A program made the translations under genes and the position numbers. From a virus, in the IMG/VR virus record IMGVR_UViG_3300033233_000006, positions 1-64,000 of that record: DNA of 64,000 bases; one strand, written 5' to 3'. Position 1 is the stretch's first letter; every line of letters begins with the position of its first letter. This document shows, piece after piece, positions 8,870 through 53,732 of this stretch. The notes beneath the pieces are model-generated. The model did no database searches and was not told the origin of the DNA. It was given only the letters and a program-made list of their open reading frames with translations.

Positions 8870-9310
8870 CTAGATCATCTCCTGAACGTAGCCGTTGGTG
8901 AGCTTCCGCAGGCGCTCGCACACGTCGCGGTAGCGGATGCAGTCCTTGGACGAGAAGCCCTCCTGGTTGTCGCGAAGCGAGATGAACCAGTGGTCGAGGG
9001 AGTCCTTCTCCAGCTCGCACTCGGGGAGCGTGAGGTTCTCGACCTTGACCGTGTAGCGCGTGTCGAGTCGGGGAGCCGGTTCGAGCGACAGCTCGACCTC
9101 GGCGACCTCGACCGGCAGCGGCTCACCGTCCTGCTTGATCTCGTAGAGGACTTGGCCGCCAACTCGGCTCGCGTCCCGGACCAAGCCGGAGCGCTGGGTA
9201 GACGAGCCGTCGGACCACACGACCCGGTGCCCGTTCTGGAACTTTGTGCGCCGCTTGGGGCGCGGGGCGAACGGGTCTCGGCGCTTGTTGTTGCGCTTGG
9301 TCTTGTTCAC
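8870..9310 (-). CDS. Basic N-terminus, beta-rich protein of unknown function
   Basis: 146 residues from GTG 9310, preceded by AAGGGA and a TGCAACTC-N12-GTGT element. A Lys/Arg-rich head (KTKRNNKRRDPF) precedes a section with FQNGHRVVW and paired hydrophobic strands. Possibly nucleic-acid binding; not recognised. Confidence 0.7.
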   Translation of the reverse strand: MNKTKRNNKRRDPFAPRPKRRTKFQNGHRVVWSDGSSTQRSGLVRDASRVGGQVLYEIKQDGEPLPVEVAEVELSLEPAPRLDTRYTVKVENLTLPECELEKDSLDHWFISLRDNQEGFSSKDCIRYRDVCERLRKLTNGYVQEMI

Positions 9311-25828: not shown

Positions 25829-26518
25829 GTGGCGATCGCTGCCGACACCATCATCCACACGCTCAAGGGGAACATGCGCGCGTCTCGCCTGGCTGCGACG
25901 AGCGAACCGTTCTACTGTTTCACCTGGGACGGCAAGCAGATCACCGTGGGCAAAGGCCGGCTCTCGAACCCGCGACGCGTACCGACTCTGAGAATCCTTC
26001 TCGACGACGGAACCTCGGTCCACCTCTCGTCGGAGCAGCCCATCCTGGGACGAGACGGCAACCCGCTCATCCCATCTCAGTCGCCCACCGGCGCCTCGCT
26101 CATGCCACTCTACCTCGGTAAGACGACCCACGGTTACCCGACCTACAAGCAGATGGGCGACCTCTGCAAGACGGCGGTCGCGCCCTCGGACCGAAGACGG
26201 GTAAGGCTGGTAGCTCGAATGGTTTACGAGTGGCGAACGGGCAAGGCGATCGAGACGGGGATGATCGTGCGTTACAAGGACGGAAAGCGAACGAACTGTG
26301 AGCCCGAGAACATGCGACTCGAAGGAAGACCGCACATGAAGCGGAGACAGCGGCTCCTCGGGTTGCAGTCGCGCAAGAAAGTGAAGACCGGGAACAACCA
26401 CAAGACCAACGGCTGCGCGCCGTACGACGAGGAGGATGTGTTCGACATCGACCTCTCCAGCTGCTCGAATGTAGGGGCCGGTGGTATCTTCTTGGTGACC
26501 AATGCCCCCGCTTCGTGA
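25829..26518 (+). CDS. Free-standing Hint/intein-like protein with HNH-type segment
   Basis: 229 residues from GTG 25829, which has GGAGGAG upstream; ATG 25778 lacks one. The start ADTIIHTLKGNMRAS and the segment ILLDDGTSVHLSSEQPIL resemble intein N-terminal blocks but without the nucleophilic cysteine. The end DVFDIDLSSCSNVGAGGIFLV-TN resembles intein C-terminal blocks. Between lies MIVRYKDGKRTNCEPENMRL, like an HNH DNA-recognition part. No extein flanks are visible. Likely a mobile nuclease derived from an intein, just upstream of an intein-bearing portal gene. Confidence 0.6.
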   Translation: MAIAADTIIHTLKGNMRASRLAATSEPFYCFTWDGKQITVGKGRLSNPRRVPTLRILLDDGTSVHLSSEQPILGRDGNPLIPSQSPTGASLMPLYLGKTTHGYPTYKQMGDLCKTAVAPSDRRRVRLVARMVYEWRTGKAIETGMIVRYKDGKRTNCEPENMRLEGRPHMKRRQRLLGLQSRKKVKTGNNHKTNGCAPYDEEDVFDIDLSSCSNVGAGGIFLVTNAPAS

Positions 26519-29500: not shown

Positions 29501-30011
29501 GGTGCTGGAGAACATCCTCAAGATGGGCGAAGCGGAGATCGCGGCGATCGAGAAGCAGAGGAAGAAGGAACAACAAGAGGGCATGGGCGCCCCCGGTGGG
29601 ATGGGCGGCGGGATGGGCATGCCTCCCGCGCCGATGCCGCCGCCCCCGCCTTCGGGGGGTGGAAGTGAACAGCCTCCCGCGGAATCTCCGGGCACGGCTG
29701 GTACTCCCGAGCCTCCGCCTCCGGGCGCTCCGGCGCGCGAGTGGAAGGTCTACGACCAGGGGCGCCGTATCGAGGAGATGCGCTATCGCGAGTCGTGCCG
29801 CAACCACCAATTCCTCGTGGACAAGCTCGGTCAAGTCCTGTCTAATCAGGATGATGCGTTCTCTCATCGTGAGCGCGAGCGCCGCGCTTTCTTCGAGGAC
29901 TTCAAGAAGGCGACGATCAACTCGCGCCGTGGATTCACCACGGCTACCCCATCGGGGCGGGGTCGCGGAACGGCCAACGGATCGCTCCCGGCACTGGGCA
30001 ACGGCCACTAA
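26502..30011 (+). CDS. Portal protein with two inteins (T4-like)
   Basis: 1169 residues as translated; about 614 after removal of two inteins (78-242 and 468-857). Mature parts show a T4 gp20-like core: YWLNRVPRYAFYVDVTDVPP, LKKKKMVNPATGRLDMRYKPL joined to SQDEDFIVGV, then WLGQEEPL. The protein forms the dodecameric DNA entry ring at one head vertex and binds terminase and neck proteins. A P/G-rich section (about 1030-1085) precedes a charged helical tail. The N-terminus LRDRVVDALRLVF resembles the LFDRVV starts of the 2H and Nudix proteins. Overlaps the Hint gene by 17 nt. Confidence 0.9.
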   Translation: MPPLRDRVVDALRLVFGAEREERRAAESPSAAALAAQPSSMYSMYGRDDLGGLLSVSQILMDRYADYEAMEEYPDIGCLAEGTLVYVVTDTGIVKPVPIEVIAVEGEGITILGFDVNRKRIVKIQANNPRLTSPSMDVVAVKMSNGRTIKATPDHLFLTADGWAAADPSKVKDGVKAAKLVKGAILIGMFAGFNPTGLTALVEPRWGKLEVLEDPTPAGKAKVYDITTVTHNFIAEGTCVHNSAYRYFANDAVQPSVTDGRVIWTVSDDDAIRGMTDDLMHKRLRAEYELWSQAYTAGMYGNNFEELLINGSGVVGLNHLPVPTMRRVEGLDGSLIGYVQDITGQFTANSHELRAMLAGNVEIPKSLALFEDWQVVHFRMRATRRRSPYGVGVGEGARWVWKRLIMMEDASIIYWLNRVPRYAFYVDVTDVPPDRVEGFLKKMKRDLKKKKMVNPATGRLDMRYKPLCLSALTKIPQLDGTERTVREMADAFARGEEQWVYSTDVEKQGRILPGKVKWAGKTRENAELLKLTLDNGESIKVTPDHKMIRRNGDFAEAQTLKVGDSLMPFRRGISTPEKGYAIHGYEWVYDPSVKLSRYTHRIVAGELGIRKPGPQDTVTHHKDFNKLNNDPRNLEEMDRTAHRELHQLAGHTGGKAVAELRKVDSELDRKLREASTRNITAFNKDPKKRARTSEQNRERDSAQYIRAYNASEKHEADNETRRRNMKAFWRDKERSAASAIKRRLVFSDEFVQAIRRLIEELPDAGAERLAKLANERGLDKVLQAANARRIKRIHADMLVKMVRKLGYKTLAEFKGVVVCDNHKVVAIEWLVEREDTYTLTVEPAHTFGISAGIFVKNSQDEDFIVGVREGRDLARIEVVSAPEWTNNESLDYFKRMLHGTLNVPRAWLGQEEPLPSKNPLSSEDVRAARVTLNLQQELKLGYERICRVHLAARGMKNPDDADFSIQMTVPSGIYELAAYEVLNARADYATRIAPFTSVRWVLENILKMGEAEIAAIEKQRKKEQQEGMGAPGGMGGGMGMPPAPMPPPPPSGGGSEQPPAESPGTAGTPEPPPPGAPAREWKVYDQGRRIEEMRYRESCRNHQFLVDKLGQVLSNQDDAFSHRERERRAFFEDFKKATINSRRGFTTATPSGRGRGTANGSLPALGNGH
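26733..27227 (+). mobile_element. Mini-intein in the portal gene
   Basis: Codons 78-242 (165 residues). Begins C-L-A-E-G-T, has the block B motif ATPDHLF, and ends GTCVHN before Ser+1. There is no room for an endonuclease, so it can splice but probably cannot home by itself. Inserted after EEYPDIG. Confidence 0.9.
27903..29072 (+). mobile_element. Large intein with HNH endonuclease in the portal gene
   Basis: Codons 468-857 (390 residues). Begins C-L-S-A-L-T, block B VTPDHKM, an HNH nuclease at about 619-646 (THHKDFNKLNNDPRNLEEM), and ends FVKN before Ser+1. The penultimate residue is Lys instead of His. Inserted between RYKPL and SQDED in the most conserved part of the portal. Confidence 0.9.
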
Positions 30012-45405: not shown

Positions 45406-45477
45406 CGGGCTGTAGCGAAGGAGCAACGCGCTGCACTGGGGGTGCAGAGATCGTGGGTGCAATCCCCACCAGCCCGA
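45406..45477 (+). tRNA. tRNA-Pro (GGG)
   Basis: 7-bp acceptor CGGGCTG/CAGCCCG, anticodon loop CTGGGGG, T-loop TGCAATC. D-loop AAGGAGCAA with A18-G19. No CCA encoded. Confidence 0.85.
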
Positions 45478-45496
45478 TCAAACGACGCGAACGCAT

Positions 45497-45570
45497 GGTG
45501 GCTGTAGCTCAGCAAGTAGAGCAACCGGCTGTGAACCGGAAGGTCGCGAGTGCAAGCCTCGCCAGTCACC
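45497..45570 (+). tRNA. tRNA-His (GTG)
   Basis: Acceptor with encoded G-1 opposite C73, as required for His identity. Anticodon loop CTGTGAA, T-loop TGCAAGC, D-loop AGCAAGTA. Confidence 0.9.
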
Positions 45571-45578
45571 TCTGGGCT

Positions 45579-45612
45579 TGACCGTGGTTACACACGGAGC
45601 TATACCCCGGTC
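45579..45612 (+). promoter_or_regulatory. Sigma70-like promoter, leaderless
   Basis: TTGACC, 17 bp, TATACC, then 6 nt to ATG 45613. Confidence 0.7.
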
Positions 45613-46020
45613 ATGCCCTACAAAGACCCCGACAAGCAGCGTGCGTTTCAACGGGAGCGTTGCCGTCGTCTAAGGAAAGAGTGGCTCGACGCTCACGGCC
45701 CCTGTGCGAAGTGCGGGAGCCGGAAAGATCCTCAAGTCGATCACATAGACCCGGAGACCAAGGTAGCCCACAACGTCTGGTCGTGGACGCCGAAGCGGCG
45801 AGACGCTGAGCTGGCGAAGTGCCAAGTCCTGTGCATCGACTGTCACAAGGAGAAGACGAAAGCAGAACGGTGGAGACCAATCACGCACGGTCACGAATCA
45901 GCCTACACCCGACGCGGGTGTAGGTGTCCGGCTTGCACCGAAGCGCACCGGCTCGCGAGGGCCAAGTACCGAAAGAAACAGCGCAGGTCAGTCACTCCAA
46001 TGCCCGAGAAGTTCAGGTAG
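45613..46020 (+). CDS. HNH endonuclease in the tRNA array
   Basis: 135 residues, MPYKDPDKQRAFQRER... HNH core CAKCGSRKDPQVDHIDPETK (about 37-56) and VLCIDCHKEKT (about 80-90), plus a second Cys group (CRCPAC). No ribosome-binding site; the own promoter places the start at the transcript end. The last codons (MPEKFR-stop) lie inside the next tRNA gene, whose D-loop supplies the TAG. Confidence 0.85.
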   Translation: MPYKDPDKQRAFQRERCRRLRKEWLDAHGPCAKCGSRKDPQVDHIDPETKVAHNVWSWTPKRRDAELAKCQVLCIDCHKEKTKAERWRPITHGHESAYTRRGCRCPACTEAHRLARAKYRKKQRRSVTPMPEKFR

Positions 46021-46074
46021 CGGAACATGTGCTTGGTAAGCACGAGGTGGTCGGTGCAACTCCGACCTCGGGCT
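46002..46074 (+). tRNA. tRNA-Thr (GGT), overlapped by HNH gene
   Basis: Acceptor GCCCGAG/CTCGGGC, anticodon loop TTGGTAA, T-loop TGCAACT, D-loop AGGTAGCG. Its first 19 nt encode the end of the HNH protein. Confidence 0.85.
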
Positions 46075-46092
46075 TCACGAGAGGGGTAACGA

Positions 46093-46233
46093 ATGCTTGG
46101 TCCCGCGATGCCGAGTGGTCCCGATCCGAAGTCGACGTGCGACGCCTTCACGATGCTGATCGGAAGGGCCTACGAGGTGCGGGAACGCGAACGAGAGAAG
46201 GGAACCAAGCGGAGGTTGCTTCATCGACGCTGA
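46093..46233 (+). CDS. Very small basic protein between tRNAs
   Basis: 46 residues, MLGPAMPSGPDPKST..., with GAGGGG six bases before ATG and a charged helix (EVREREREKGTKRRLLHRR). Ends 4 nt before a tRNA. Could be a nuclease remnant or a small RNA-binding protein. Confidence 0.45.
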   Translation: MLGPAMPSGPDPKSTCDAFTMLIGRAYEVREREREKGTKRRLLHRR

Positions 46234-46237
46234 TCGT

Positions 46238-46310
46238 GGCGCGCAGGCCAAAGAAGTGAGGCACGCCCCTCATAAGGGCGAGAAACGGGGTGCAACTCCC
46301 TGGCGCGCTA
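46238..46310 (+). tRNA. tRNA-Met or Ile2 (CAT)
   Basis: Acceptor GGCGCGC/GCGCGCT, anticodon stem CGCCC/GGGCG, loop CTCATAA, T-loop TGCAACT. Without C1-A72 it is not the initiator; could be elongator Met or, after C34 modification, Ile. Confidence 0.8.
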
Positions 46311-46327
46311 TCGACGAAGACAAGAAT

Positions 46328-46415
46328 GGATCGCACACGTCCGGGGTAGTCCCGGCGCCCGCCTCGAAAGCGGTGGAGCCCGAAAGGGTTCGGGGTGCAA
46401 CTCCTCGGCGATCCG
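46328..46415 (+). tRNA. tRNA-Ser (CGA)
   Basis: Acceptor GGATCGC/GCGATCC, long variable arm (GCCC-GAAA-GGGT), anticodon loop CTCGAAA, T-loop TGCAACT. Confidence 0.85.
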
Positions 46416-46455
46416 TGAGACGTTCAACTGGCCGTCTTTGACAATTGGGTCCGTC

Positions 46456-46526
46456 CGGGCATTGGCCTAAGCCAAGGCATCGACCAAAGAGGGTCGAGGA
46501 TTCAGGTGCGAGTCCTGAGTGCCCGA
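46456..46526 (+). tRNA. tRNA-like gene with abnormal anticodon loop
   Basis: Acceptor CGGGCAT/GTGCCCG, D-stem GCC/GGC and T-arm TCAGG-TGCGAGT-CCTGA are sound. The anticodon arm pairs TCGAC/GTCGA around an 8-nt loop CAAAGAGG without U33 (or 6 bp with a 6-nt loop). Identity cannot be assigned; it may be a pseudo-tRNA or a frame-altering tRNA. Confidence 0.55.
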
Positions 46527-46531
46527 TTGCT

Positions 46532-46557
46532 GCGCGGAGCAGCTGCGCCTAGACTTG
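46532..46557 (+). promoter_or_regulatory. Sigma70-like promoter for an HNH gene
   Basis: TTGCTG (about 46527), 17 bp, TAGACT (46550-46555), 8 nt to ATG 46564. The words TAGACT and GGCG are shared with the promoter of the HNH gene at 51052. Confidence 0.55.
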
Positions 46558-46563
46558 ATGGCG

Positions 46564-47034
46564 ATGAGTCAAACGAAGGTGTGCCCGCGCTGTCCGACGC
46601 CGACACCCAAGCCGATAGAGGAGTTCAGTCTCCGAGCCCAAAGCGCCGACGGTCGCGACCTCTACTGCCGCAAGTGCAAGCGGGCCATCAACCGCCGCTC
46701 CTACGAAGGGAACAAGAAGGCTCACATCGCCGCGAACAGGGCGGCGATGGATCGGCGCCGAGTCGAGGTGCAAGAGTTCGTGTGGAACTTCCTCCTCTCT
46801 CACCCGTGCGCGGACTGCGGCGAGGGTGATCCGATCGTCCTCGACTTCGACCACCTCTACGGCAAGCGGAAACACACTCGCGGCGTGTCTGAGATGACGC
46901 GCGGCTGTCACACCGTCGAGACGGTTGCCGCCGAGATCGAGAAGTGCGCCGTGCGATGCGCCAACTGCCACCGCCGGAAGACCGCCAGGGAAAGAGGCTA
47001 CTGGCGCTCGGAGAGAACCAACACAGCGTCGTAG
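46564..47034 (+). CDS. HNH endonuclease in the tRNA array
   Basis: 156 residues, MSQTKVCPRC... (an ATG two codons upstream is possible). Zinc pairs CPRC and CRKC, then HPCADCGEGDPIVLDFDHLYGKR (about 80-102) and CAVRCANCHRRKT near the end: a complete HNH fold. Probably a homing-type nuclease aimed at the tRNA region. Confidence 0.85.
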   Translation: MSQTKVCPRCPTPTPKPIEEFSLRAQSADGRDLYCRKCKRAINRRSYEGNKKAHIAANRAAMDRRRVEVQEFVWNFLLSHPCADCGEGDPIVLDFDHLYGKRKHTRGVSEMTRGCHTVETVAAEIEKCAVRCANCHRRKTARERGYWRSERTNTAS

Positions 47035-47043
47035 TCCGTCTTT

Positions 47044-47115
47044 CGGGGTGTAGCGCAGGAGTAGCGCGCTGCTTTCGGGAAGCAGAGGTCGTGGGTGCGA
47101 ATCCCACCACTCCGA
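47044..47115 (+). tRNA. tRNA-Pro (CGG)
   Basis: Acceptor CGGGGTG/CACTCCG, loop TTCGGGA, D-loop AGGAGTA, T-loop TGCGAAT. Confidence 0.9.
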
Positions 47116-47129
47116 TTCAGCAGCATCAT

Positions 47130-47202
47130 GGGCTCGTAGCTCTAATAGGAGAGCGTTCCCCTCGCACGGGAAAGGTTACGGGTGCAACTCCCGTCGGGTC
47201 CA
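47130..47202 (+). tRNA. tRNA-Ala (CGC)
   Basis: Acceptor GGGCTCG/CGGGTCC, loop CTCGCAC, D-loop TAATAGGA, T-loop TGCAACT. Confidence 0.9.
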
Positions 47203-47207
47203 CTCAA

Positions 47208-47280
47208 GGGGTCGTAGCTCTAACGGGAGAGCGTCTCGATGGCATCGAGAAGGCTGCGGGTGCAATTCCCGCCGACTCCA
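47208..47280 (+). tRNA. tRNA-Ala (GGC)
   Basis: Acceptor GGGGTCG/CGACTCC, loop ATGGCAT, T-loop TGCAATT. D-loop TAACGGGA places C before G19, so C18 could pair with G55. Confidence 0.9.
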
Positions 47281-47293
47281 TCAGCAACGATGA

Positions 47294-47379
47294 GGAGAGC
47301 GAACCGGCCAAGGCGCCGGGCTCGTCTTGAAAGCGATGCGCCCGCTTCGGCGGGTGGGGTGCGAGACCTCCGTTCTCCG
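47294..47379 (+). tRNA. tRNA-Ser (TGA)
   Basis: Acceptor GGAGAGC/GTTCTCC, long variable arm, loop CTTGAAA, T-loop TGCGAGA. Confidence 0.85.
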
Positions 47380-47393
47380 TGCAAGCTTCTCGA

Positions 47394-47439
47394 ATCTTGA
47401 CCCCGAGACCTGCCTTCGAGGCCGTCACGCGGTCAAGAT
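47394..47439 (+). repeat. 9-bp inverted repeat between tRNAs
   Basis: ATCTTGACC and GGTCAAGAT enclose 28 nt. It fills a 66-nt gap and may be a processing signal, terminator or small structured RNA. Confidence 0.55.
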
Positions 47440-47445
47440 GTTCCT

Positions 47446-47518
47446 GGGTTCGTAGTTCAGCAGCTAGAACAGCACCTTGACATGGTGAAGATCGCGGGTG
47501 CGAGTCCCGCCGAGCCCA
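47446..47518 (+). tRNA. tRNA-Val (GAC)
   Basis: Acceptor GGGTTCG/CGAGCCC, loop TTGACAT, D-loop AGCAGCTA, T-loop TGCGAGT. Confidence 0.9.
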
Positions 47519-47527
47519 TTTCAACAC

Positions 47528-47601
47528 GGGTCTGTAGCTCCAATAGCCAGAGCAGCTCGCTCTTAACGAGATGGTTGTCGGTGCAAGTCCGACCAGGCCC
47601 A
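47528..47601 (+). tRNA. tRNA-Lys (CTT)
   Basis: Acceptor GGGTCTG/CAGGCCC, loop CTCTTAA, D-loop CAATAGCCA, T-loop TGCAAGT. Confidence 0.9.
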
Positions 47602-47605
47602 TCAT

Positions 47606-47677
47606 GGCGTGGTGGTCTAACAGTAGGACGCCCGGCTTTCAATCGGGACCGTACGGGTGCAAGTCCCGTCCACGTCA
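47606..47677 (+). tRNA. tRNA-Glu (TTC)
   Basis: Acceptor GGCGTGG/CCACGTC, loop CTTTCAA, D-loop AACAGTA, T-loop TGCAAGT. Confidence 0.9.
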
Positions 47678-47681
47678 ACTT

Positions 47682-47754
47682 GGTCTGCGAGTCGTCTAGT
47701 GATGGCAACCGATTGCAACCCGGTTCGAGCAGGGTGCGATTCCCTGGCAGACCT
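47682..47754 (+). tRNA. tRNA-Cys (GCA)
   Basis: Acceptor GGTCTGC/GCAGACC with U73, loop TTGCAAC closed by an A-C mismatch, T-loop TGCGATT. Confidence 0.85.
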
Positions 47755-47758
47755 TCAT

Positions 47759-47830
47759 GCGGGTGTAGCTCAGCAGCAGAGCGCCGGTCTTCCAAACCGA
47801 TGGTCGAGGGTGCGACTCCCTCCGTCCGCT
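47759..47830 (+). tRNA. tRNA-Gly (TCC)
   Basis: Acceptor GCGGGTG/CGTCCGC, loop CTTCCAA, D-loop AGCAGCA, T-loop TGCGACT. Confidence 0.9.
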
Positions 47831-47831
47831 T

Positions 47832-48182
47832 CTACGTGACGACCGGGGCCGATGCGGTCAGGAAGACCTGATTCGCGGGCGGCAACGGAGTCGGGTTGGA
47901 GGTGACCGTCACCCTGGCGATCGTGTCGGGAGGACTCGGCAGGTTGCCGCGCGCCGAACAGGTGATGGTAGCGTTGCCGAAGCCGACCCCGTACACGAGA
48001 CACCGGAGCCCGTCCTCGGTAGGCGCGAGCCTGACGGCGACGGGGTTGTCGACCCGCCATACCGGGGTGATGCCGGAAGGAAGCTGTCCCGGGCCGCCCG
48101 AGTCGAAGTCGACCCCGTTGATGGTCAGCGTGAACTTCTCGCCGGGCGCCAACTGGAGGCTCGGAACAATCGAGGCGGGCAT
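47832..48182 (-). CDS. Small Ig-like beta-sandwich protein inside the tRNA array
   Basis: 116 residues: GEKFTLTINGVDFDSGG...ITPVWRVDNPVAVRLAPTED...GVGFGNATITCSARGN is an Ig-like (BIG-type) beta-sandwich, common in phage virion decoration or tail proteins. GAGGAGG precedes ATG 48182. The only minus-strand gene within the array. Confidence 0.7.
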   Translation of the reverse strand: MPASIVPSLQLAPGEKFTLTINGVDFDSGGPGQLPSGITPVWRVDNPVAVRLAPTEDGLRCLVYGVGFGNATITCSARGNLPSPPDTIARVTVTSNPTPLPPANQVFLTASAPVVT

Positions 48183-48240
48183 GGGTGCTCCTCCTCGCCG
48201 ATCTTACTACACGCCAAGGTCGCCCATGCGACCGAGGAAT

Positions 48241-48313
48241 GCCCCCGTAGCTCAGTAGACAGAGCAGCCGCCTTCTAAGCGGAAGGTCGAAGGTGCGAAT
48301 CCTTCCGGGGGCA
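48241..48313 (+). tRNA. tRNA-Arg (TCT)
   Basis: Acceptor GCCCCCG/CGGGGGC, loop CTTCTAA, D-loop AGTAGACA, T-loop TGCGAAT. Confidence 0.9.
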
Positions 48314-48326
48314 ACGCGACGAACAC

Positions 48327-48398
48327 GGGGTCGTAGCTCAGCAGGAGAGCGTCTGCCTTGCAAGCAGAGGGTCGCGGGTGCGATTCCCGCCGATTCCA
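48327..48398 (+). tRNA. tRNA-Ala (TGC)
   Basis: Acceptor GGGGTCG/CGATTCC, loop CTTGCAA, D-loop AGCAGGA, T-loop TGCGATT. Confidence 0.9.
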
Positions 48399-48414
48399 TG
48401 AAGGAGGAGATGAG

Positions 48415-48453
48415 ATGCACACGTACCAGAGGTTCCCCAAACGCCCGTGGTGA
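48415..48453 (+). CDS. Possible 12-residue peptide
   Basis: ATG 48415 with GGAGGAG upstream gives MHTYQRFPKRPW and a stop inside a 12-bp inverted repeat. A real peptide or chance; the strong ribosome-binding site is the only support. Confidence 0.25.
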   Translation: MHTYQRFPKRPW

Positions 48454-48471
48454 TTCCCTTCACCACGGGCG
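48442..48471 (+). repeat. 12-bp inverted repeat overlapping a tRNA start
   Basis: CGCCCGTGGTGA and TCACCACGGGCG with a 6-nt loop. The right arm includes the first 5 nt of tRNA-Lys (TTT), so forming the stem would compete with the tRNA acceptor. Confidence 0.75.
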
Positions 48472-48538
48472 CGTAGCTCGAAGGACGTAGCAACCGCCTT
48501 TTAAGCGGAAGGTCTGGGTCCGATTCCCAGCGTGCCCA
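48467..48538 (+). tRNA. tRNA-Lys (TTT) with C55
   Basis: Acceptor GGGCGCG/CGTGCCC, loop CTTTTAA. The T-loop is TCCGATT (C55), and the D-loop CGAAGGACGT has G18-G19, so G18 could pair with C55. The only tRNA here with C at 55. Confidence 0.9.
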
Positions 48539-48543
48539 TTCGA

Positions 48544-48616
48544 GGACTCGTAGCTCAATTAGTAGAGCACCGGATTGAAGATCCGGGTGTTGATGGTGCA
48601 ACTCCGTCCGAGTCCA
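48544..48616 (+). tRNA. tRNA-Phe (GAA)
   Basis: Acceptor GGACTCG/CGAGTCC, loop TTGAAGA, D-loop AATTAGTA, T-loop TGCAACT. Confidence 0.9.
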
Positions 48617-48621
48617 TTCAA

Positions 48622-48696
48622 GCTCCCATAGCTCATGACAGGTAGAGCGTCGGATTGTCGATCCGAAGGTGGCGGGTGCAACTCCCGTTGGGGGCG
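48622..48696 (+). tRNA. tRNA-Asp (GTC)
   Basis: Acceptor GCTCCCA/TGGGGGC with G73, loop TTGTCGA, T-loop TGCAACT. Confidence 0.9.
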
Positions 48697-48701
48697 TACG
48701 T

Positions 48702-48768
48702 CGCGGGTCCCGGAGAGGGACGTTGGGCTCATAACCCGACTGAGGCTGTGCGACTCGGCCACCCGCAA
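48702..48768 (+). tRNA. Initiator tRNA-fMet (CAT), shortened D-arm
   Basis: C1-A72 mismatch (CGCGGGT/ACCCGCA) and three G-C pairs at the base of the anticodon stem (TTGGG/CCCGA) are hallmarks of bacterial initiators. Loop CTCATAA, T-loop TGCGACT. Only 14 nt lie between acceptor and anticodon stems, so the D-arm is cut down. Confidence 0.85.
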
Positions 48769-48776
48769 TTCATCAT

Positions 48777-48848
48777 GGCGCATTCGTCCAGCAGCTAGGA
48801 CATCGGCCCCTCACGCCGAAGACACGGGTGCAATTCCCGTATGCGTCA
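48777..48848 (+). tRNA. tRNA-Glu (CTC), C33
   Basis: Acceptor GGCGCAT/ATGCGTC, anticodon loop CCCTCAC with C at 33 instead of U, D-loop AGCAGCTA, T-loop TGCAATT. Confidence 0.85.
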
Positions 48849-48850
48849 TT

Positions 48851-48904
48851 CTCCCGTAGGCTCAAACAGTAGAGTCGCCGAAGTGGCTGTGGACCTAAGA
48901 TAGA
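48851..48904 (+). pseudogene. Possible truncated tRNA (5' half)
   Basis: CTCCCGTAGGCTCAAACAG followed by TAGAGT resembles an acceptor 5' strand and D-arm, but no matching T-arm or 3' acceptor follows; an HNH gene begins instead. Confidence 0.3.
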
Positions 48905-48925
48905 GTGCCTGTTAACATCGGTCGC

Positions 48926-49321
48926 ATGAGGAACGGGCCTTACATCCTGGTTGTTGCGCCGGTTGGCTACCCGGGGAAGAAGTATCGCGGGCGCTACGCC
49001 TACGAGCACTCGGTTGTGTGGTGGCAGAACACCGGGCGAATCGTCCCAAGGGGCTGGCTCGTCCATCACAAGAACGAGGACAAGCATGACAACGCGTTCG
49101 CGAACCTGGAGGCGAAGCGGACCGGCAAGCACACAGCCGACCACAACGCCGTCGCTCCGACCGTTCTCGGGTGCGCTTACTGCGGCTCAAAGATCGAGCG
49201 GAAGCGCGCCGAGCACGAATACCGTCTGAGCATCGGGCAAACAGACTTCTACTGCAACCGATCGTGCTTCGGAAAACACAAAAGGCCGAGAGGTCCGAGG
49301 TATCCAGTTATTGCGCTCTAG
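48926..49321 (+). CDS. HNH endonuclease in the tRNA array
   Basis: 131 residues, MRNGPYILVVAPVGYPGK...YEHSVVWWQNTGRIVPRGWLVHHKNEDKHDNAFANLE..., a typical HNH_3 nuclease with a late zinc pair (CAYCG, C). A TGGACC, 17 bp, TAACAT promoter ends 7 nt before ATG 48926. The stop TAG is made by positions 8-10 of the next tRNA (GCGCTC-TAG). Confidence 0.85.
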   Translation: MRNGPYILVVAPVGYPGKKYRGRYAYEHSVVWWQNTGRIVPRGWLVHHKNEDKHDNAFANLEAKRTGKHTADHNAVAPTVLGCAYCGSKIERKRAEHEYRLSIGQTDFYCNRSCFGKHKRPRGPRYPVIAL

Positions 49322-49384
49322 CATCAAAGTAGATGTCCGGCACTGTTAATGCCGTGGTTCTCGGTGCGAGTCCGAGGGGCGCAG
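49312..49384 (+). tRNA. tRNA-Asn (GTT), overlapped by HNH gene
   Basis: Acceptor TGCGCTC/GGGCGCA, loop CTGTTAA, T-loop TGCGAGT. First 10 nt encode the end of the HNH protein. Confidence 0.85.
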
Positions 49385-49389
49385 TCGGT

Positions 49390-49451
49390 CTGGTCTTCGC
49401 CGTCGAGCGGAAGAGCGCAAGCCGTCGCGAGCGCGGCGAAGACCAGCTTTT
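49390..49451 (+). terminator. Terminator-like hairpin inside the tRNA array
   Basis: CTGGTCTTCGCCG and CGGCGAAGACCAG, a 13-bp stem with a branched 31-nt loop, followed by CTTTT. Confidence 0.65.
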
Positions 49452-49523
49452 AGGTCGCTGGGGTCAACAGAAACCTACTCGGCTCCAACCCGAGTGATCT
49501 CCGTGCAAGTCGGAGGCGGCCTG
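49452..49523 (+). tRNA. tRNA-Trp (CCA)
   Basis: Acceptor AGGTCGC/GCGGCCT with G73, loop CTCCAAC, T-loop TGCAAGT. Abuts the next tRNA. Confidence 0.85.
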
Positions 49524-49594
49524 TGCCTCGTCGTTCAACAGTAGGACGGCGGTCTTTGAAGCCGCGAATCTCGGTGCGAATCCGAGCGAGGCAT
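49524..49594 (+). tRNA. tRNA-Gln (TTG)
   Basis: Acceptor TGCCTCG/CGAGGCA, loop CTTTGAA, D-loop AACAGTA, T-loop TGCGAAT. Confidence 0.9.
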
Positions 49595-49601
49595 TCTCCT
49601 T

Positions 49602-49674
49602 TGCCCACTAGCTCAACCAGCAGAGCGACGGATTCTGAATCCGTAGGTTCAAGGTGCGAATCCTTGGTGGGCAG
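49602..49674 (+). tRNA. tRNA-Gln (CTG)
   Basis: Acceptor TGCCCAC/GTGGGCA, loop TTCTGAA, D-loop AACCAGCA, T-loop TGCGAAT. Confidence 0.9.
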
Positions 49675-49680
49675 TCTTTC

Positions 49681-49752
49681 GGGCTCGTCTTCCAGCAGCA
49701 AGGATGCCTCTCTCACACGGAGGAGACGAAGGTGCGAGTCCTTCCGAGCCCA
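49681..49752 (+). tRNA. tRNA-Val (CAC)
   Basis: Acceptor GGGCTCG/CGAGCCC, loop CTCACAC, T-loop TGCGAGT; D-stem weak. Confidence 0.85.
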
Positions 49753-49756
49753 TCAT

Positions 49757-49828
49757 GCGGACGTAGTTCAGCAGCAGAACGACAGGTTGCCAATCTGTAG
49801 GTCGCGGGTGCAATCCCCGCCGTCCGCT
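49757..49828 (+). tRNA. tRNA-Gly (GCC)
   Basis: Acceptor GCGGACG/CGTCCGC, loop TTGCCAA, D-loop AGCAGCA, T-loop TGCAATC. Confidence 0.9.
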
Positions 49829-49837
49829 TCTCTCCGA

Positions 49838-49924
49838 GGGCGTGTCATCGTAGTAGCGATCGACCCAGACTGTAAATCTGGTTCCCGGAAGGGATCAACG
49901 TAGGTGCGAGTCCTACCACGCCCA
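49838..49924 (+). tRNA. tRNA-Tyr (GTA)
   Basis: Acceptor GGGCGTG/CACGCCC, long variable arm as in bacterial Tyr tRNAs, loop CTGTAAA, T-loop TGCGAGT. Confidence 0.9.
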
Positions 49925-49931
49925 TCATCAT

Positions 49932-50004
49932 GCGGACGTAGCTCAGCCAGCAGAGCGAGTGCTTCCCAAGCACTAGGTCGCGGGTGCAACTCCCGCCGTC
50001 CGCT
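49932..50004 (+). tRNA. tRNA-Gly (CCC)
   Basis: Acceptor GCGGACG/CGTCCGC, identical to Gly (GCC); loop TTCCCAA, D-loop AGCCAGCA, T-loop TGCAACT. Confidence 0.9.
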
Positions 50005-50008
50005 TCAA

Positions 50009-50082
50009 GTCCTCGTAGCTCAGCAGATCAGAGCGACGCCCTCCGAAGGCGAAGGTCGCTGGTGCGATTCCAGCCGAGGACA
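50009..50082 (+). tRNA. tRNA-Arg (CCG)
   Basis: Acceptor GTCCTCG/CGAGGAC, loop CTCCGAA, D-loop AGCAGATCA, T-loop TGCGATT. Confidence 0.9.
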
Positions 50083-50087
50083 TGCTT

Positions 50088-50161
50088 GTCTCCGTAGCTC
50101 AGCAGATCAGAGCAACGCGCTACGAACGCGGAGGTCGCAGGTGCAATCCCTGCCGGGGACA
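50088..50161 (+). tRNA. tRNA-Arg (ACG)
   Basis: Acceptor GTCTCCG/CGGGGAC, loop CTACGAA (A34, a candidate for deamination to inosine), D-loop AGCAGATCA, T-loop TGCAATC. Confidence 0.9.
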
Positions 50162-50169
50162 TCTCTCAA

Positions 50170-50242
50170 GCCGTCGTAGCCCAATAGCAGAGGCGCTTGA
50201 TTCAGGGTCAAGAGGTTGTGGGTGCAACTCCCACCGGCGGCA
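50170..50242 (+). tRNA. tRNA-Leu (CAG), short variable loop
   Basis: Acceptor GCCGTCG/CGGCGGC, loop TTCAGGG, T-loop TGCAACT. Variable loop is only AGGTT; bacterial Leu tRNAs normally carry a long arm. Confidence 0.85.
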
Positions 50243-50246
50243 TCGC

Positions 50247-50319
50247 GGGTCGCTAGGGAAGCGAGCACACCCGCCCGGCCTAAACCCGGGAACGCTCGGT
50301 GCAAGTCCGAGGCGACCTA
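50247..50319 (+). tRNA. tRNA-Leu (TAA), short variable loop, C33
   Basis: Acceptor GGGTCGC/GCGACCT, anticodon stem CCCGG/CCGGG, loop CCTAAAC with C33, 4-nt variable loop, T-loop TGCAAGT. Confidence 0.8.
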
Positions 50320-50325
50320 CCACAC

Positions 50326-50398
50326 GCCCCTCTAGCCCAACAGCAGAGGCGCTCGGCTTAGGACCGAGAGGTTCCGGGTGCGAATCCCGGGAGGGGCA
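50326..50398 (+). tRNA. tRNA-Leu (TAG), short variable loop
   Basis: Acceptor GCCCCTC/GAGGGGC, loop CTTAGGA, variable loop AGGTT, T-loop TGCGAAT. Confidence 0.85.
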
Positions 50399-50402
50399 TC
50401 GC

Positions 50403-50472
50403 CGGGCGCGGTCTAGTCGACCAGGTGAGGCTTATATCCTTGCCGCGCTGGGTGCGATCCCCAGGCGCCCCA
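50403..50472 (+). tRNA. tRNA-Ile (TAT), reduced D-arm
   Basis: Acceptor CGGGCGC/GCGCCCC with C1-C72 mismatch, anticodon arm TGAGG-CTTATAT-CCTTG, T-loop TGCGATC. The D-arm pairs GGTC/GACC round a 5-nt loop with no usual linker. Confidence 0.7.
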
Positions 50473-50476
50473 TCAA

Positions 50477-50550
50477 GCCGCTCTAGCCCAACCAGCAGAG
50501 GCGCCGGTCTCAAAAGCCGGAGGTTCTCGGTGCAAGTCCGAGGAGCGGCA
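50477..50550 (+). tRNA. tRNA-Leu (CAA), short variable loop
   Basis: Acceptor GCCGCTC/GAGCGGC, loop CTCAAAA, variable loop AGGTT, T-loop TGCAAGT. Confidence 0.85.
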
Positions 50551-50639
50551 GCAGCAGCGAGTGTCACCGGGCGACCAAAAGCCCGGCGAGGCGTGGAGCG
50601 ATGTCCTCGCGAGAGGGCTACGCAACCGACAACAACTAC

Positions 50640-50727
50640 GCGGTCGTGGCGGAATCTAGCAGACGCACCAGGTTGAGGGCCTGGCGTCCCGAAAGGGCGA
50701 CTGTGGGTGCAAGTCCCACCGACCGCA
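50640..50727 (+). tRNA. tRNA-Leu (GAG), long variable arm
   Basis: Acceptor GCGGTCG/CGACCGC, loop TTGAGGG, long variable arm (TCCC-GAAA-GGGC), T-loop TGCAAGT. The only Leu tRNA here of the usual bacterial type. A CCGGGC/GCCCGG hairpin lies upstream (about 50565-50584). Confidence 0.9.
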
Positions 50728-50732
50728 TTCAA

Positions 50733-50805
50733 GGGTGTGTAGCTCAGTAGTTAGAGCGCGCGGCTGATAACCGCGAGGTCGAGAGTGCGATCCTCTCCTC
50801 ACCCA
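50733..50805 (+). tRNA. tRNA-Ile (GAT)
   Basis: Acceptor GGGTGTG/CTCACCC (one T-T mismatch), loop CTGATAA, D-loop AGTAGTTA, T-loop TGCGATC. Confidence 0.85.
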
Positions 50806-50810
50806 TCTCT

Positions 50811-50897
50811 GGAGAGCGAACCGAACGAGCGCATCGGTCCTCGGTGCTAACGAGTGAGTGCCCGAGAGGGTATGGGGTGCAAGTCCTCCGTTCTCCG
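50811..50897 (+). tRNA. tRNA-Ser (GCT)
   Basis: Acceptor GGAGAGC/GTTCTCC, long variable arm, loop GTGCTAA, T-loop TGCAAGT. Confidence 0.85.
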
Positions 50898-50923
50898 TGC
50901 GATCATGTCGTCCAACCCTAAGA

Positions 50924-50995
50924 CGGGGTGTAGCTCAGCAGCAGAGCCTCGCGTTTGGGACGCGAAGGTCGCGGGTGCAATCCCCGCCACCCCGA
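50924..50995 (+). tRNA. tRNA-Pro (TGG)
   Basis: Acceptor CGGGGTG/CACCCCG, loop TTTGGGA, D-loop AGCAGCA, T-loop TGCAATC. Confidence 0.9.
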
Positions 50996-51015
50996 TCCGC
51001 ATACATAATTAGGCC

Positions 51016-51051
51016 GTGACATCGCGCGAGTCGATGACTAGACTCGTTGGC
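51016..51051 (+). promoter_or_regulatory. Sigma70-like promoter for an HNH gene
   Basis: GTGACA, 17 bp, TAGACT (51039-51044), 7 nt to GTG 51052. A CATAAT box (51004-51009) 6 nt before an in-frame GTG at 51016 is an alternative. Confidence 0.6.
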
Positions 51052-51693
51052 GTGAGCGACGCAGCGGGCATCTCCGAGACGAAGACGTGCAGCCGATGCG
51101 ACTTTCCCAAGCCCATCGGCGAGTTTTCGCTCAAGAAGAAGTCGACCGGCGAACGCCGCTCGGAATGCAAGAAGTGTCGAGTCGATGCACACGCCGCCCA
51201 CGTCGCGCAGTGCAAGTCCGATGGTGTGTGCCCCGACTGTCGAGCCTCGACAGACGGCGAGCGTCTCTACTGCGACAAGTGTCGCGCCAAGCGCGCCAAG
51301 GCTTCTCGCGCCAAGCGCGCAAGACGCAAGAGTGCTCGCCGTTGCGTCCACTGCGGGACTCCGAGTGGCAGACTTTCGCTCTGCAAGGGGTGTCGCCCGA
51401 TCTACGCTGCCCACAACAAGCGGCTGCGGGACAAGAACAAGCAAGCCGTCCTCGACCACTACGGACACGCTTGCGCGTGTTGCGGCGAGGCTCGAAGCGC
51501 CTTCCTCACGATCGACCACATCGACGGTGGAGGGAACAAGCACCGGAAGGAGATCGGCGGGTCAGCGCATCTTCATTCGTGGCTCATCAAGAACAAGTTT
51601 CCCGACGGATTCAGGACGTTGTGCTTCAACTGCAACTGCGGTCGGCGCTTCACAGGAGGTGTCTGCCCACACGAACTGGAGAGGAAGACATGA
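51052..51693 (+). CDS. HNH endonuclease in the tRNA array
   Basis: 213 residues from GTG 51052 (or 225 from GTG 51016). Many zinc pairs (CSRC, CKKC, CPDC, CDKC, CVHC), then CACCGEARSAFLTIDHIDGG, KHRKE and LCFNCNCG with CPHEL. Homologous to the 1458-1898 nuclease in the last third. The long cysteine array probably reads DNA. Stop overlaps the next gene as ATGA. Confidence 0.85.
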   Translation: MSDAAGISETKTCSRCDFPKPIGEFSLKKKSTGERRSECKKCRVDAHAAHVAQCKSDGVCPDCRASTDGERLYCDKCRAKRAKASRAKRARRKSARRCVHCGTPSGRLSLCKGCRPIYAAHNKRLRDKNKQAVLDHYGHACACCGEARSAFLTIDHIDGGGNKHRKEIGGSAHLHSWLIKNKFPDGFRTLCFNCNCGRRFTGGVCPHELERKT

Positions 51694-53297
51694 GCGTCTT
51701 GAACGAGCCCGTGCTCGTACTCAATCGCAACTGGCAACCAGTGACCTTCCTTCCGGTTCAAGTGGCGATCGTCAACGTTATGCGGGACATGGCAAGTGTA
51801 CTGGATGCTCAGAACTACCTCCTCCTCACCTTCGAGGAGTGGGCGGTGAGCGAGCCGGACACGGACCGCTGGATCAAGACGGCTCGCGATCCGATCCCGG
51901 CGCCCGAGGTGATCGTCCTCAAGAAGTACGGCGAGCGTCCTCCCCGGAAGATCGTGTTCAACCGACCGAACCTCGCCAAGCGGGACGCCCACCAGTGCTT
52001 CGCTTCTGGCACGCCGGTCCAACTCGGCGGTGGTCGGTGGGTTTCGATCGAAGATGTGTCGATAGGCGATTCGATCATTACGGCGACTGGTGTTTCGGTC
52101 GTTACCGACAAGATGGCGCAGGAACCGTCTCGTCCCTGTGTCTCAGTTAAGCCGTACTACGGACTGCCGGTCGTCGTTACCGACGACCACAAGTTCCTGG
52201 TGCTCGACAGGGCGGGTGGACTCCGTTTCGTTCCTGCGGCTGAGTTGAAGGGGCATCACGTCGTCTGGCCGCTCGATCGAACGGGAGATGTAATAACTCT
52301 GCCTGCGCCGCTCGCCCGCTTGATCGGTTACTTCATGTCCGAGGGACACACCGCGCGCGACTACCGAGACGGCGTAGAGCAGTATGTTGGCTTCACGATC
52401 GCGCCGCATGAGGACGAACTGGCGGAGGGTATCAAGAGCGCCGTCAGGGCGGTGCTCTCGCTCGACGACAAGCACATCGCCGACAAGATCAATGTCGACC
52501 CGCGAAACGGGAACCAGAGTCGCCGGATCAATGTCGGTTCTCGCGAGCTTGCCAGGATAGTGAAGACTTACGTCTCTGGAAGGAAGGCGCGCGTTAAGCA
52601 GTTCCCGTTCGACCCCATCAACCTCGACGAGAGAACGGCAACCGAACTTTTCGAGGCGATGATGTCCGGTGATGGCTGTGATCTCATGACACGCGATTCG
52701 CCAACTCGCGTGCTTACGACCGCGTCACGGACGCTTGCGCTCCAGTCCCAACGTCTCGCGTGGGGTCTTGGGCGCTTCGCTTCGATCGTACAGGGGCGGC
52801 AGGTCAACTTCAACCCAGGCGCTCCTGTCTACCACGTCCGCTGGTTCCCCGAGACGACGCGGCATCTCGGAAAGGTTGTTCGGGTCGACGGACACACCTA
52901 TATGTCTGCTCCCGTTCAATACGTCCGAGACGTTTCATATGACGGTTTGGTCTGGGATCTCACAGTGAGGTCGGAGGACGAGCGCGGACACACCTTTGTG
53001 ACATCCGCCGGAATCGCGAGCAACTGCCAGTACTGCGGCGCGGACCTCTTTCGCGAGAAGATCACGGTGGAGCACATCCTGCCGCGGTCGCGCGGAGGCC
53101 CGACGAGCTGGGAGAACTGCGTCGCCGCGTGCGAGAGCTGCAACTCGCGCAAGGCCGACCAGACCCCTCAAGAGGCCGGCATGAGGCTCCGCACGGTGCC
53201 GAAGGTACCGGCGTGGCGAACTCGACTCCGGGCGCCCCGAGGCGTAGTGAGGCCGTCGTGGGAGCCGTTCCTCGCGAAAGAGCTGGAGTCGGCCTGA
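51690..53297 (+). CDS. HNH endonuclease (McrA-like layout) interrupted by an intein
   Basis: 535 residues as translated, about 192 after splicing. Mature parts: VLVLNRNWQPVTFLPVQVAI...VIVLKKYGERPPRKIVFNRPNLAKRDAHQ joined to CQYCGADLFREKITVEHILP then RSRGGPTSWENCVAACESCNSRK and AGMRLRTVPKVPAW. This matches a widespread phage/bacterial HNH nuclease with one zinc finger. The intein sits exactly before the first zinc cysteine, so the protein is inactive until splicing. Confidence 0.85.
   Translation: MSVLNEPVLVLNRNWQPVTFLPVQVAIVNVMRDMASVLDAQNYLLLTFEEWAVSEPDTDRWIKTARDPIPAPEVIVLKKYGERPPRKIVFNRPNLAKRDAHQCFASGTPVQLGGGRWVSIEDVSIGDSIITATGVSVVTDKMAQEPSRPCVSVKPYYGLPVVVTDDHKFLVLDRAGGLRFVPAAELKGHHVVWPLDRTGDVITLPAPLARLIGYFMSEGHTARDYRDGVEQYVGFTIAPHEDELAEGIKSAVRAVLSLDDKHIADKINVDPRNGNQSRRINVGSRELARIVKTYVSGRKARVKQFPFDPINLDERTATELFEAMMSGDGCDLMTRDSPTRVLTTASRTLALQSQRLAWGLGRFASIVQGRQVNFNPGAPVYHVRWFPETTRHLGKVVRVDGHTYMSAPVQYVRDVSYDGLVWDLTVRSEDERGHTFVTSAGIASNCQYCGADLFREKITVEHILPRSRGGPTSWENCVAACESCNSRKADQTPQEAGMRLRTVPKVPAWRTRLRAPRGVVRPSWEPFLAKELESA
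51996..53024 (+). mobile_element. LAGLIDADG intein inside the HNH gene
   Basis: Codons 103-445 (343 residues). Starts C-F-A-S-G-T, block B VTDDHKF, two dodecapeptide helices LIGYFMSEGH (about 211-220) and LFEAMMSGDGC (about 320-330), ends AGIASN before Cys+1. The penultimate His is replaced by Ser. The +1 residue doubles as a zinc ligand of the host protein. Confidence 0.9.
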
Positions 53298-53334
53298 AAG
53301 ACTGCGGTCGGCGCTGATGTTGGCGTCGGCCAAT

Positions 53335-53421
53335 GGAGTAGGACCCGCGGGGTAGTCCTGCGGCTCGCCTGGAAAGCGATGGCGCCCGAAAGGGCGTGGG
53401 GTGCAACTCCTCCCTGCTCCG
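53335..53421 (+). tRNA. tRNA-Ser (GGA)
   Basis: Acceptor GGAGTAG/CTGCTCC, long variable arm, loop CTGGAAA, T-loop TGCAACT. Confidence 0.85.
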
Positions 53422-53425
53422 TCTC

Positions 53426-53497
53426 GCCCTCGAAGCGTAGTCAGCGACGCACTGGTTTCGTAAACCAGAGAGCCCGGCGCACCTCCGGGCGAGGGCT
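53426..53497 (+). tRNA. tRNA-Thr (CGT) with atypical T-loop
   Basis: Acceptor GCCCTCG/CGAGGGC, D-stem GCGT/ACGC, loop TTCGTAA. The T-arm is CCCGG-CGCACCT-CCGGG: C54, G55 and C58 all depart from the usual T-loop. Confidence 0.8.
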
Positions 53498-53582
53498 TCT
53501 CGTCGAATCCGGTTGGGACTACATCTGGCCTAATCAGCCTGAACCAACTACGTCTCAGCCACCCTTTCATCGACGGGTTTTC

Positions 53583-53657
53583 GCTCCCGTAGCTCAGGCA
53601 GATCAGAGCGACGTTTTCCTAAAGCGTAGGTCCCAGGTGCAAGTCCTGGCGGGAGCA
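53583..53657 (+). tRNA. tRNA-Arg (CCT)
   Basis: Acceptor GCTCCCG/CGGGAGC, loop TTCCTAA, D-loop AGGCAGATCA, T-loop TGCAAGT. Confidence 0.9.
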
Positions 53658-53660
53658 TCT

Positions 53661-53732
53661 GCCTCCGAAACTTTGAGAGTGAAGCCCGGTCCTGTAAACC
53701 GGCGGAACTCGGTGCGAGTCCGAGCGGGGGCT
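53661..53732 (+). tRNA. tRNA-Thr (TGT), C33
   Basis: Acceptor GCCTCCG/CGGGGGC, loop CCTGTAA with C33, T-loop TGCGAGT, weak D-arm. Confidence 0.8.

Follow-up and report, generated by a model that had tools for sequence, protein, structure and literature searches.

An alternative A18-G55 elbow pair in the tRNA array of a T4-like phage, in other phages and in single bacterial tRNAs

The virus record IMGVR_UViG_3300033233_000006 of IMG/VR comprises 131,251 bases, and its first 64 kb (from here: the window) contain an array of 45 transfer RNA (tRNA) genes with an exchanged elbow pair. The pair G18-pseudouridine 55 (Ψ55) is treated as a constant of tRNA, and Ψ55 as near-universal. Whereas canonical bacterial tRNAs have G18-Ψ55, the phage array has A18-G55 (from here: the swap). 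We consider it probable, with some reserve, that the tRNAs of this phage form a nearly complete set for translation with an alternative elbow pair, adopted for independence from modification.

The 45 genes are located on the plus strand between positions 45406 and 53732 of the window, with HNH-type genes lying between them (Table 1). A strict cloverleaf parse of this strand yielded 37 tRNAs, 36 with T54-G55-C56 and one, tRNA-Lys TTT, with TCC. Eight further tRNAs (Ser-CGA, the gene at 46456, Ser-TGA, fMet, Tyr, Ser-GGA, Thr-CGT and Thr-TGT) were parsed by hand, with 11–12 of the 12 acceptor and T-stem pairs formed, and G55 was found in all eight. The original prediction, made from the sequence of the window, that 44 of the 45 tRNAs have G55 was thus reproduced; the remaining one, Lys-TTT, has C55. 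An A before G19 had been noticed in nearly all D-loops, and 34 of the 37 strictly parsed tRNAs do have A18 directly before G19. All eight tRNAs parsed by hand contain the dinucleotide A-G in their D-loops, bringing A18 to about 42 of 45. Perfect T-arms of 5 base pairs (bp) in the array stretch comprise 39 with TGCRA, one with TCCRA and none with TTCRA, and the TGCRA letters occur in the T-loops of 43 of the 45 tRNAs. The G55 tRNA pattern had 9 matches in the observed and 0 in the shuffled sequence.

Both sets of parses show a cloverleaf with a 7-bp acceptor stem, a 5-bp T-arm and a standard anticodon stem-loop (one tRNA has an anticodon loop of 8 nucleotides, nt). The G19-C56 and T54-A58 contacts are kept across the array except in Thr-CGT, which has C54 and C58 beside G55. 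C56 was found in 37/37 strict parses; T54 and A58 were required by the strict scan itself, and the hand parses keep both with the same exception. The G18/U55 pair, which provides the targets of TrmH and TruB, does not occur in the array. Lacking U55 and G18, the swapped tRNAs can form neither Ψ55 (TruB) nor methylated G18 (Gm18, TrmH), as had been predicted. The discriminator base is shared with canonical bacterial tRNA (Rfam RF00005), like the cloverleaf and the two contacts, and 32 of the 45 genes pass the Rfam cut-off, while ARAGORN recognized 34. The expectation that standard models under-detect such genes was therefore borne out.

Two members had been regarded as compensatory exceptions. 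For Lys-TTT, the sole member without G55, this reading gains support: among 1,469 unique tRNAs, C55 was found 20 times with G18 and never with A18, and since C55 goes with G18 generally, the G18/C55 combination of Lys-TTT is supported as a coupled change. The C18 assigned to Ala-GGC is not secure. Its D-loop reads TAACGGGA, that of the sister Ala-CGC reads TAATAGGA, and aligning the two places a G at position 18 of Ala-GGC. Uncertain parses concern the gene at 46456, Ile-TAT (D-arm), Ala-GGC (position 18) and Thr-CGT. An irregular tRNA fragment is located near 48852.

All 20 amino acids are represented in the array, its anticodons read 99.7% of the phage codons with only GUA left uncovered, and an initiator-type tRNA is present, judged by its C1xA72 mismatch and three G-C anticodon-stem pairs. 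For these reasons the array would most simply be a translation set rather than debris. The tRNA-Leu genes CAG, TAA, TAG and CAA (50170-50550) have variable loops of 4–5 nt, not the long arm usual in bacterial tRNA-Leu, and such genes are likewise present in related phages.

The transfer-messenger RNA (tmRNA) gene of the same phage matched Rfam RF00023 with 117.9 bits and has the canonical T-loop TTCGATT. The swap is thus restricted to the tRNAs, and a phage-wide mutational bias was rejected because the tmRNA keeps U55.

Coupling of the two positions was analyzed with a search pattern in which G55 was fixed and position 18 left free, covering at least 118 viral and at least 116 GTDB stretches. 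As these samples are anchored on G55 genes, they inform on coupling and breadth, not on prevalence. The unambiguous viral tRNAs on the matches listed were 186 A18/G55, 272 G18/U55, 3 A18/U55 and 2 G18/G55, and the cellular tRNAs among the matches listed were 246 A18/G55, 169 G18/U55, 1 A18/U55 and 7 G18/G55. The odds ratio between positions 18 and 55 exceeded 5,000 in both samples (Fisher tests, in which relatedness is ignored); in two Met tRNAs the classifier used mistakes the CAGG loop for A18. Intermediates were also rare in exhaustive scans of 2.9 million IMG/VR contigs, with A18/U55 in 47 and G18/G55 in 6 contigs. Swapped tRNAs keep C56 in 100% and T54 and A58 in 92–97% of cases. These results support the view that positions 18 and 55 vary together as a selected tertiary pair. 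The earlier argument from covariation to selection thus stands on two samples, although Ala-GGC no longer serves as an example for it.

A search with the 662-amino-acid protein encoded at 41253 found no relatives, and relatives were sought by the capsid protein instead, yielding 27 related contigs with 59–84% identity. Twelve of these were searched whole and three have tRNA arrays, in which 31/31, 31/34 and 25/31 tRNAs are swapped (81–100%), showing the pattern to be present in relatives. Their non-swapped tRNAs (Met, Leu-TAA and Tyr, and Asn in one phage) have T55 with G18. Three distant phages with 27–31% capsid identity have largely swapped arrays in the stretch read (18/18, 14/15 and 5/5), and many phages have just one swapped tRNA, the remainder being canonical. 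In twelve cultured phages sampled, 141 of 144 tRNAs are canonical, on which basis array size alone was rejected as the cause of the swap. The cultured Brevundimonas phage Kikimora has an initiator-like tRNA-Met with A18/G55. When the array was compared with cultured phages by nucleotide search, no near match resulted, and the distant matches correspond to ordinary tRNA similarity.

The same pair was found in cells. Among the GTDB matches listed, single housekeeping genes with A18/G55 are flanked by canonical tRNAs. Examples are Ile-GAT adjoining Ala-TGC in Endomicrobium and other Elusimicrobia, Thr-GGT in Elusimicrobia, Met-CAT in many Patescibacteria, Arg-CCT in Daviesbacteria and His-GTG in Pelagibacter-like bacteria. 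Altogether, the swap occurs in at least 53 phylum-anticodon combinations, not all of which are independent events. In the isolate HIMB114, 30 of the 32 tRNAs were read; its single tRNA-His has A18/G55 and the other 29 have G18/U55, while the length of the two unread tRNAs suggests the Ser or Leu type. Because cell growth needs a histidine tRNA, the genome implies that A18-G55 must serve charging and translation in HIMB114, and tRNAs with this pair almost certainly work in translation. When a swapped tRNA-Asp from a Kaiserbacteria bin was compared with the canonical one from another bin, six sites differed, four of which make up the tertiary pairs 15-48 and 18-55, the others being 57 and 59; the two tRNAs thus come close to an ideal natural comparison. 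Contigs binned as Planctomycetota or Verrucomicrobiota (L155, L164 and L171) contain arrays, possibly from phages or mobile elements, with 24/25, 17/18 and 15/15 swapped tRNAs, and the other tRNAs of these bins are canonical. TruB_N was not found in the two Planctomycetota bins with swapped arrays, and four phage records searched for TruB gave no match.

A structural explanation is offered by RNA motifs described elsewhere. At the elbow of a tRNA, residue 18 inserts itself between residues 57 and 58, where it forms a pair with residue 55 (PMC4810234), and G18-U55 is described as conserved (PMC7912444; PMC4810234). UGNRA T-loops are known from other RNAs, including the lone-pair triloops of thiamine pyrophosphate, adenosylcobalamin and flavin mononucleotide riboswitches, and there the G of the loop commonly makes contact with an A from elsewhere, yielding a composite GNRA tetraloop (PMC2258182). 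The T-loops of the array have the same U-G-N-R-A letters closed by U-A, and A18, the candidate outside A, covaries with G55; here the motif would serve as the elbow across an entire set of tRNAs. We infer that T54-G55-C56-R57-A58 would be a UGNRA lone-pair triloop and that A18 would slide between R57 and A58, completing a composite GNRA of G55, C56, R57 and A18. Such an elbow is strongly suggested for the swapped tRNAs by the covariation. With A18 completing it, the tRNA would keep its L shape and, on the outside, the G19-C56 face on which RNase P and the ribosome rely.

Less certain is the further step that entire phage sets took up the swap because an elbow of this kind would fold without Ψ55, Gm18 and dihydrouridine. 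Tens of phage tRNAs, made fast in the infected cell, would then neither have to wait for the modification enzymes of the host nor rely on them. Swapped tRNAs have fewer uridines at the dihydrouridine sites U16/17 and U20 (p 5e-5 to 3e-10), with U20 present in 33% of the swapped and 63% of the canonical tRNAs of the viral set. With these fewer dihydrouridine sites and the missing U55 and G18 targets, we favour a rebuilding of the phage sets on an elbow that would be independent of host modification. A more far-reaching view, that A18-G55 is a second self-sufficient elbow, missed because G18-Ψ55 was assumed to be universal, on which phages rebuilt their sets, free of host modification and invisible to host enzymes recognising the elbow, is put forward tentatively and we regard it as rather doubtful.

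Several points weigh against an elbow adopted for modification independence. The samples take G55 genes as their starting point, and sequences related to each other are not independent observations. In isolates, most of the phage arrays sampled remain canonical. The depletion of dihydrouridine sites may reflect the length of the D-loop or the base composition and not selection. TruB-bearing cells (HIMB114, Endomicrobium and other Elusimicrobia) also use A18/G55, so the swap does not simply make up for a missing enzyme, and a mere loss of TruB from the cell was rejected as its cause. Finally, E. coli leucyl-tRNA synthetase and leucine identity are reported to need G18:U55 (PMC9976931), hence the charging of swapped tRNA-Leu is not assured.

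The main rival is drift plus array inheritance: an equally good pair would have been reached via the rare A18-U55, and arrays would have become fixed by descent, exchange and duplication with no specific benefit. The coexistence of swapped and canonical states within arrays is consistent with this, as are the 47 viral contigs with A18-U55 and the scatter of single swaps over the phylum-anticodon combinations in cells. However, near-total fixation over 30–45 isoacceptors in distantly related phages would be unexpected, and the arrays do not resemble a recent spread from one founder, as 22 of the 37 window tRNAs are closer to the canonical tRNA of their own isotype than to window tRNAs of other isotypes, which is a weak split. 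This explanation is possible, yet we do not think it likely.

The original prediction had considered the swap as a phage mark or evasion device. An altered elbow would block host defences that cleave or sense tRNAs, or a phage factor would destroy the host tRNAs and spare its own. Evasion of tRNA-targeting defences through anticodon-loop changes has been proposed and supported for phage tRNAs (PMC10264068), which likewise are phage-borne sets differing from the host at conserved sites, but there the anticodon loop is changed and here the elbow. The coverage of all amino acids, as required if host tRNAs are lost, and the canonical loop of the phage tmRNA would fit such a role. To our knowledge, known tRNA-targeting defences attack the anticodon or the tail and not the elbow, which counts against it. 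No tRNase was found among 40 phage proteins scanned. Because bacterial housekeeping tRNAs carry the same swap, the cultured phages sampled are mostly canonical and many phages have a single swapped tRNA among canonical ones, the swap as such is weakened as a mark or evasion device, and we consider this role unlikely.

A side task outside ribosomal translation is very improbable. The non-proteinogenic tRNA-Gly of Staphylococcus, which serve cell-wall synthesis, also have an altered T-arm and by it escape EF-Tu (PMC9976931), but they represent one isotype, whereas the phage array covers all isotypes and nearly all codons. Dedication to a single amino acid is at odds with the 20 amino acids of the array, and the initiator-type tRNA and the single-copy examples in cells likewise speak against a side task. 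The T-loop of these Staphylococcus tRNAs is reportedly also UGC. Decaying pseudogenes or sequencing errors, to which the few irregular members (46456, Thr-CGT and the fragment near 48852) might point, are refuted by the two-position covariation, the intact stems and the recurrence of the pattern across isolate genomes and numerous metagenomes of independent origin.

Hundreds of phage tRNAs, whole phage sets and essential tRNAs of bacteria share the coupled replacement, which indicates that at least one further form of the elbow works. Active suppressor tRNAs reportedly selected in vivo by the Steinberg group from randomised D- and T-loops may contain A18-G55. A literature search covering few subscription papers found no report of an A18-G55 elbow, a 'purine trap' or phage elbow changes and does not establish priority. 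Swapped tRNAs are natural experiments on the roles of Ψ55, Gm18 and dihydrouridine, and tRNA finders and modification maps overlook a gene class. With named examples outside metagenomes (tRNA-His of HIMB114 and tRNA-Met of phage Kikimora), the question is testable now.

The phage has the genes expected of a T4-like myovirus, with portal protein gp20, prohead protease, major capsid protein gp23 and tail sheath. The portal protein contains an intein (window 26502-30011), and an intein-like insert was noticed in an HNH protein encoded between the tRNA genes (window 51690-53297). Genes for an ADP-ribosylglycohydrolase and a DNA methylase each have a LAGLIDADG-type insert (record 104838-107057 and 111811-115119). 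A gene for a Ro60/TROVE protein is followed by the tmRNA gene (record 126430-128844, equal to L012:6430-8844), which ARAGORN misses and whose tag region looks long. Near the Ro60 gene there are tRNA-like stretches with TTCGA loops (L012:9085-9159 and about 9225-9302), which are perhaps Y-RNA-like (YrlA) partners of Ro60.

Table 1. The tRNA genes of the array, with window coordinates and the states of positions 18 and 55.
Gene	Position	Strand	Evidence
tRNA-Pro GGG, A18/G55	45406..45477	+	strict parse
tRNA-His GTG, A18/G55	45498..45570	+	strict parse
tRNA-Thr GGT, A18/G55	46002..46074	+	strict parse
tRNA-Met/Ile CAT (elongator type), A18/G55	46238..46310	+	strict parse
tRNA-Ser CGA, G55	46328..46415	+	hand parse
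tRNA-like gene, 8-nt anticodon loop (ARAGORN aaga), G55, acceptor and T stems intact	46456..46526	+	ARAGORN, hand parse
tRNA-Pro CGG, A18/G55	47044..47115	+	strict parse
tRNA-Ala CGC, A18/G55	47130..47202	+	strict parse
tRNA-Ala GGC, G55; position 18 G or C by alignment	47208..47280	+	strict parse
tRNA-Ser TGA, G55	47294..47379	+	hand parse
tRNA-Val GAC, A18/G55	47446..47518	+	strict parse
tRNA-Lys CTT, A18/G55	47528..47601	+	strict parse
tRNA-Glu TTC, A18/G55	47606..47677	+	strict parse
tRNA-Cys GCA, A18/G55	47682..47754	+	strict parse
tRNA-Gly TCC, A18/G55	47759..47830	+	strict parse
tRNA-Arg TCT, A18/G55	48241..48313	+	strict parse
tRNA-Ala TGC, A18/G55	48327..48398	+	strict parse
tRNA-Lys TTT, G18/C55 (exception)	48467..48538	+	strict parse
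tRNA-Phe GAA, A18/G55	48544..48616	+	strict parse
tRNA-Asp GTC, A18/G55	48622..48696	+	strict parse
initiator-type tRNA-fMet CAT (C1xA72, GGG/CCC anticodon stem), G55	48702..48768	+	hand parse, sequence reading
tRNA-Glu CTC, A18/G55	48777..48848	+	strict parse
tRNA-Asn GTT, A18/G55	49312..49384	+	strict parse
tRNA-Trp CCA, A18/G55	49452..49523	+	strict parse
tRNA-Gln TTG, A18/G55	49524..49594	+	strict parse
tRNA-Gln CTG, A18/G55	49602..49674	+	strict parse
tRNA-Val CAC, A18/G55	49681..49752	+	strict parse
tRNA-Gly GCC, A18/G55	49757..49828	+	strict parse
tRNA-Tyr GTA, A18/G55	49838..49924	+	Rfam, hand parse
tRNA-Gly CCC, A18/G55	49932..50004	+	strict parse
tRNA-Arg CCG, A18/G55	50009..50082	+	strict parse
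tRNA-Arg ACG, A18/G55	50088..50161	+	strict parse
tRNA-Leu CAG (short variable loop), A18/G55	50170..50242	+	strict parse
tRNA-Leu TAA (short variable loop), A18/G55	50247..50319	+	strict parse
tRNA-Leu TAG (short variable loop), A18/G55	50326..50398	+	strict parse
tRNA-Ile TAT, G55; D-arm parse uncertain	50403..50472	+	strict parse
tRNA-Leu CAA (short variable loop), A18/G55	50477..50550	+	strict parse
tRNA-Leu GAG (long variable arm), A18/G55	50640..50727	+	strict parse
tRNA-Ile GAT, A18/G55	50733..50805	+	strict parse
tRNA-Ser GCT, A18/G55	50811..50897	+	strict parse
tRNA-Pro TGG, A18/G55	50924..50995	+	strict parse
tRNA-Ser GGA, G55	53335..53421	+	hand parse
tRNA-Thr CGT, T-loop CGCACCT (G55, C54, C58)	53426..53497	+	Rfam, hand parse
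tRNA-Arg CCT, A18/G55	53583..53657	+	strict parse
tRNA-Thr TGT, G55	53661..53732	+	hand parse

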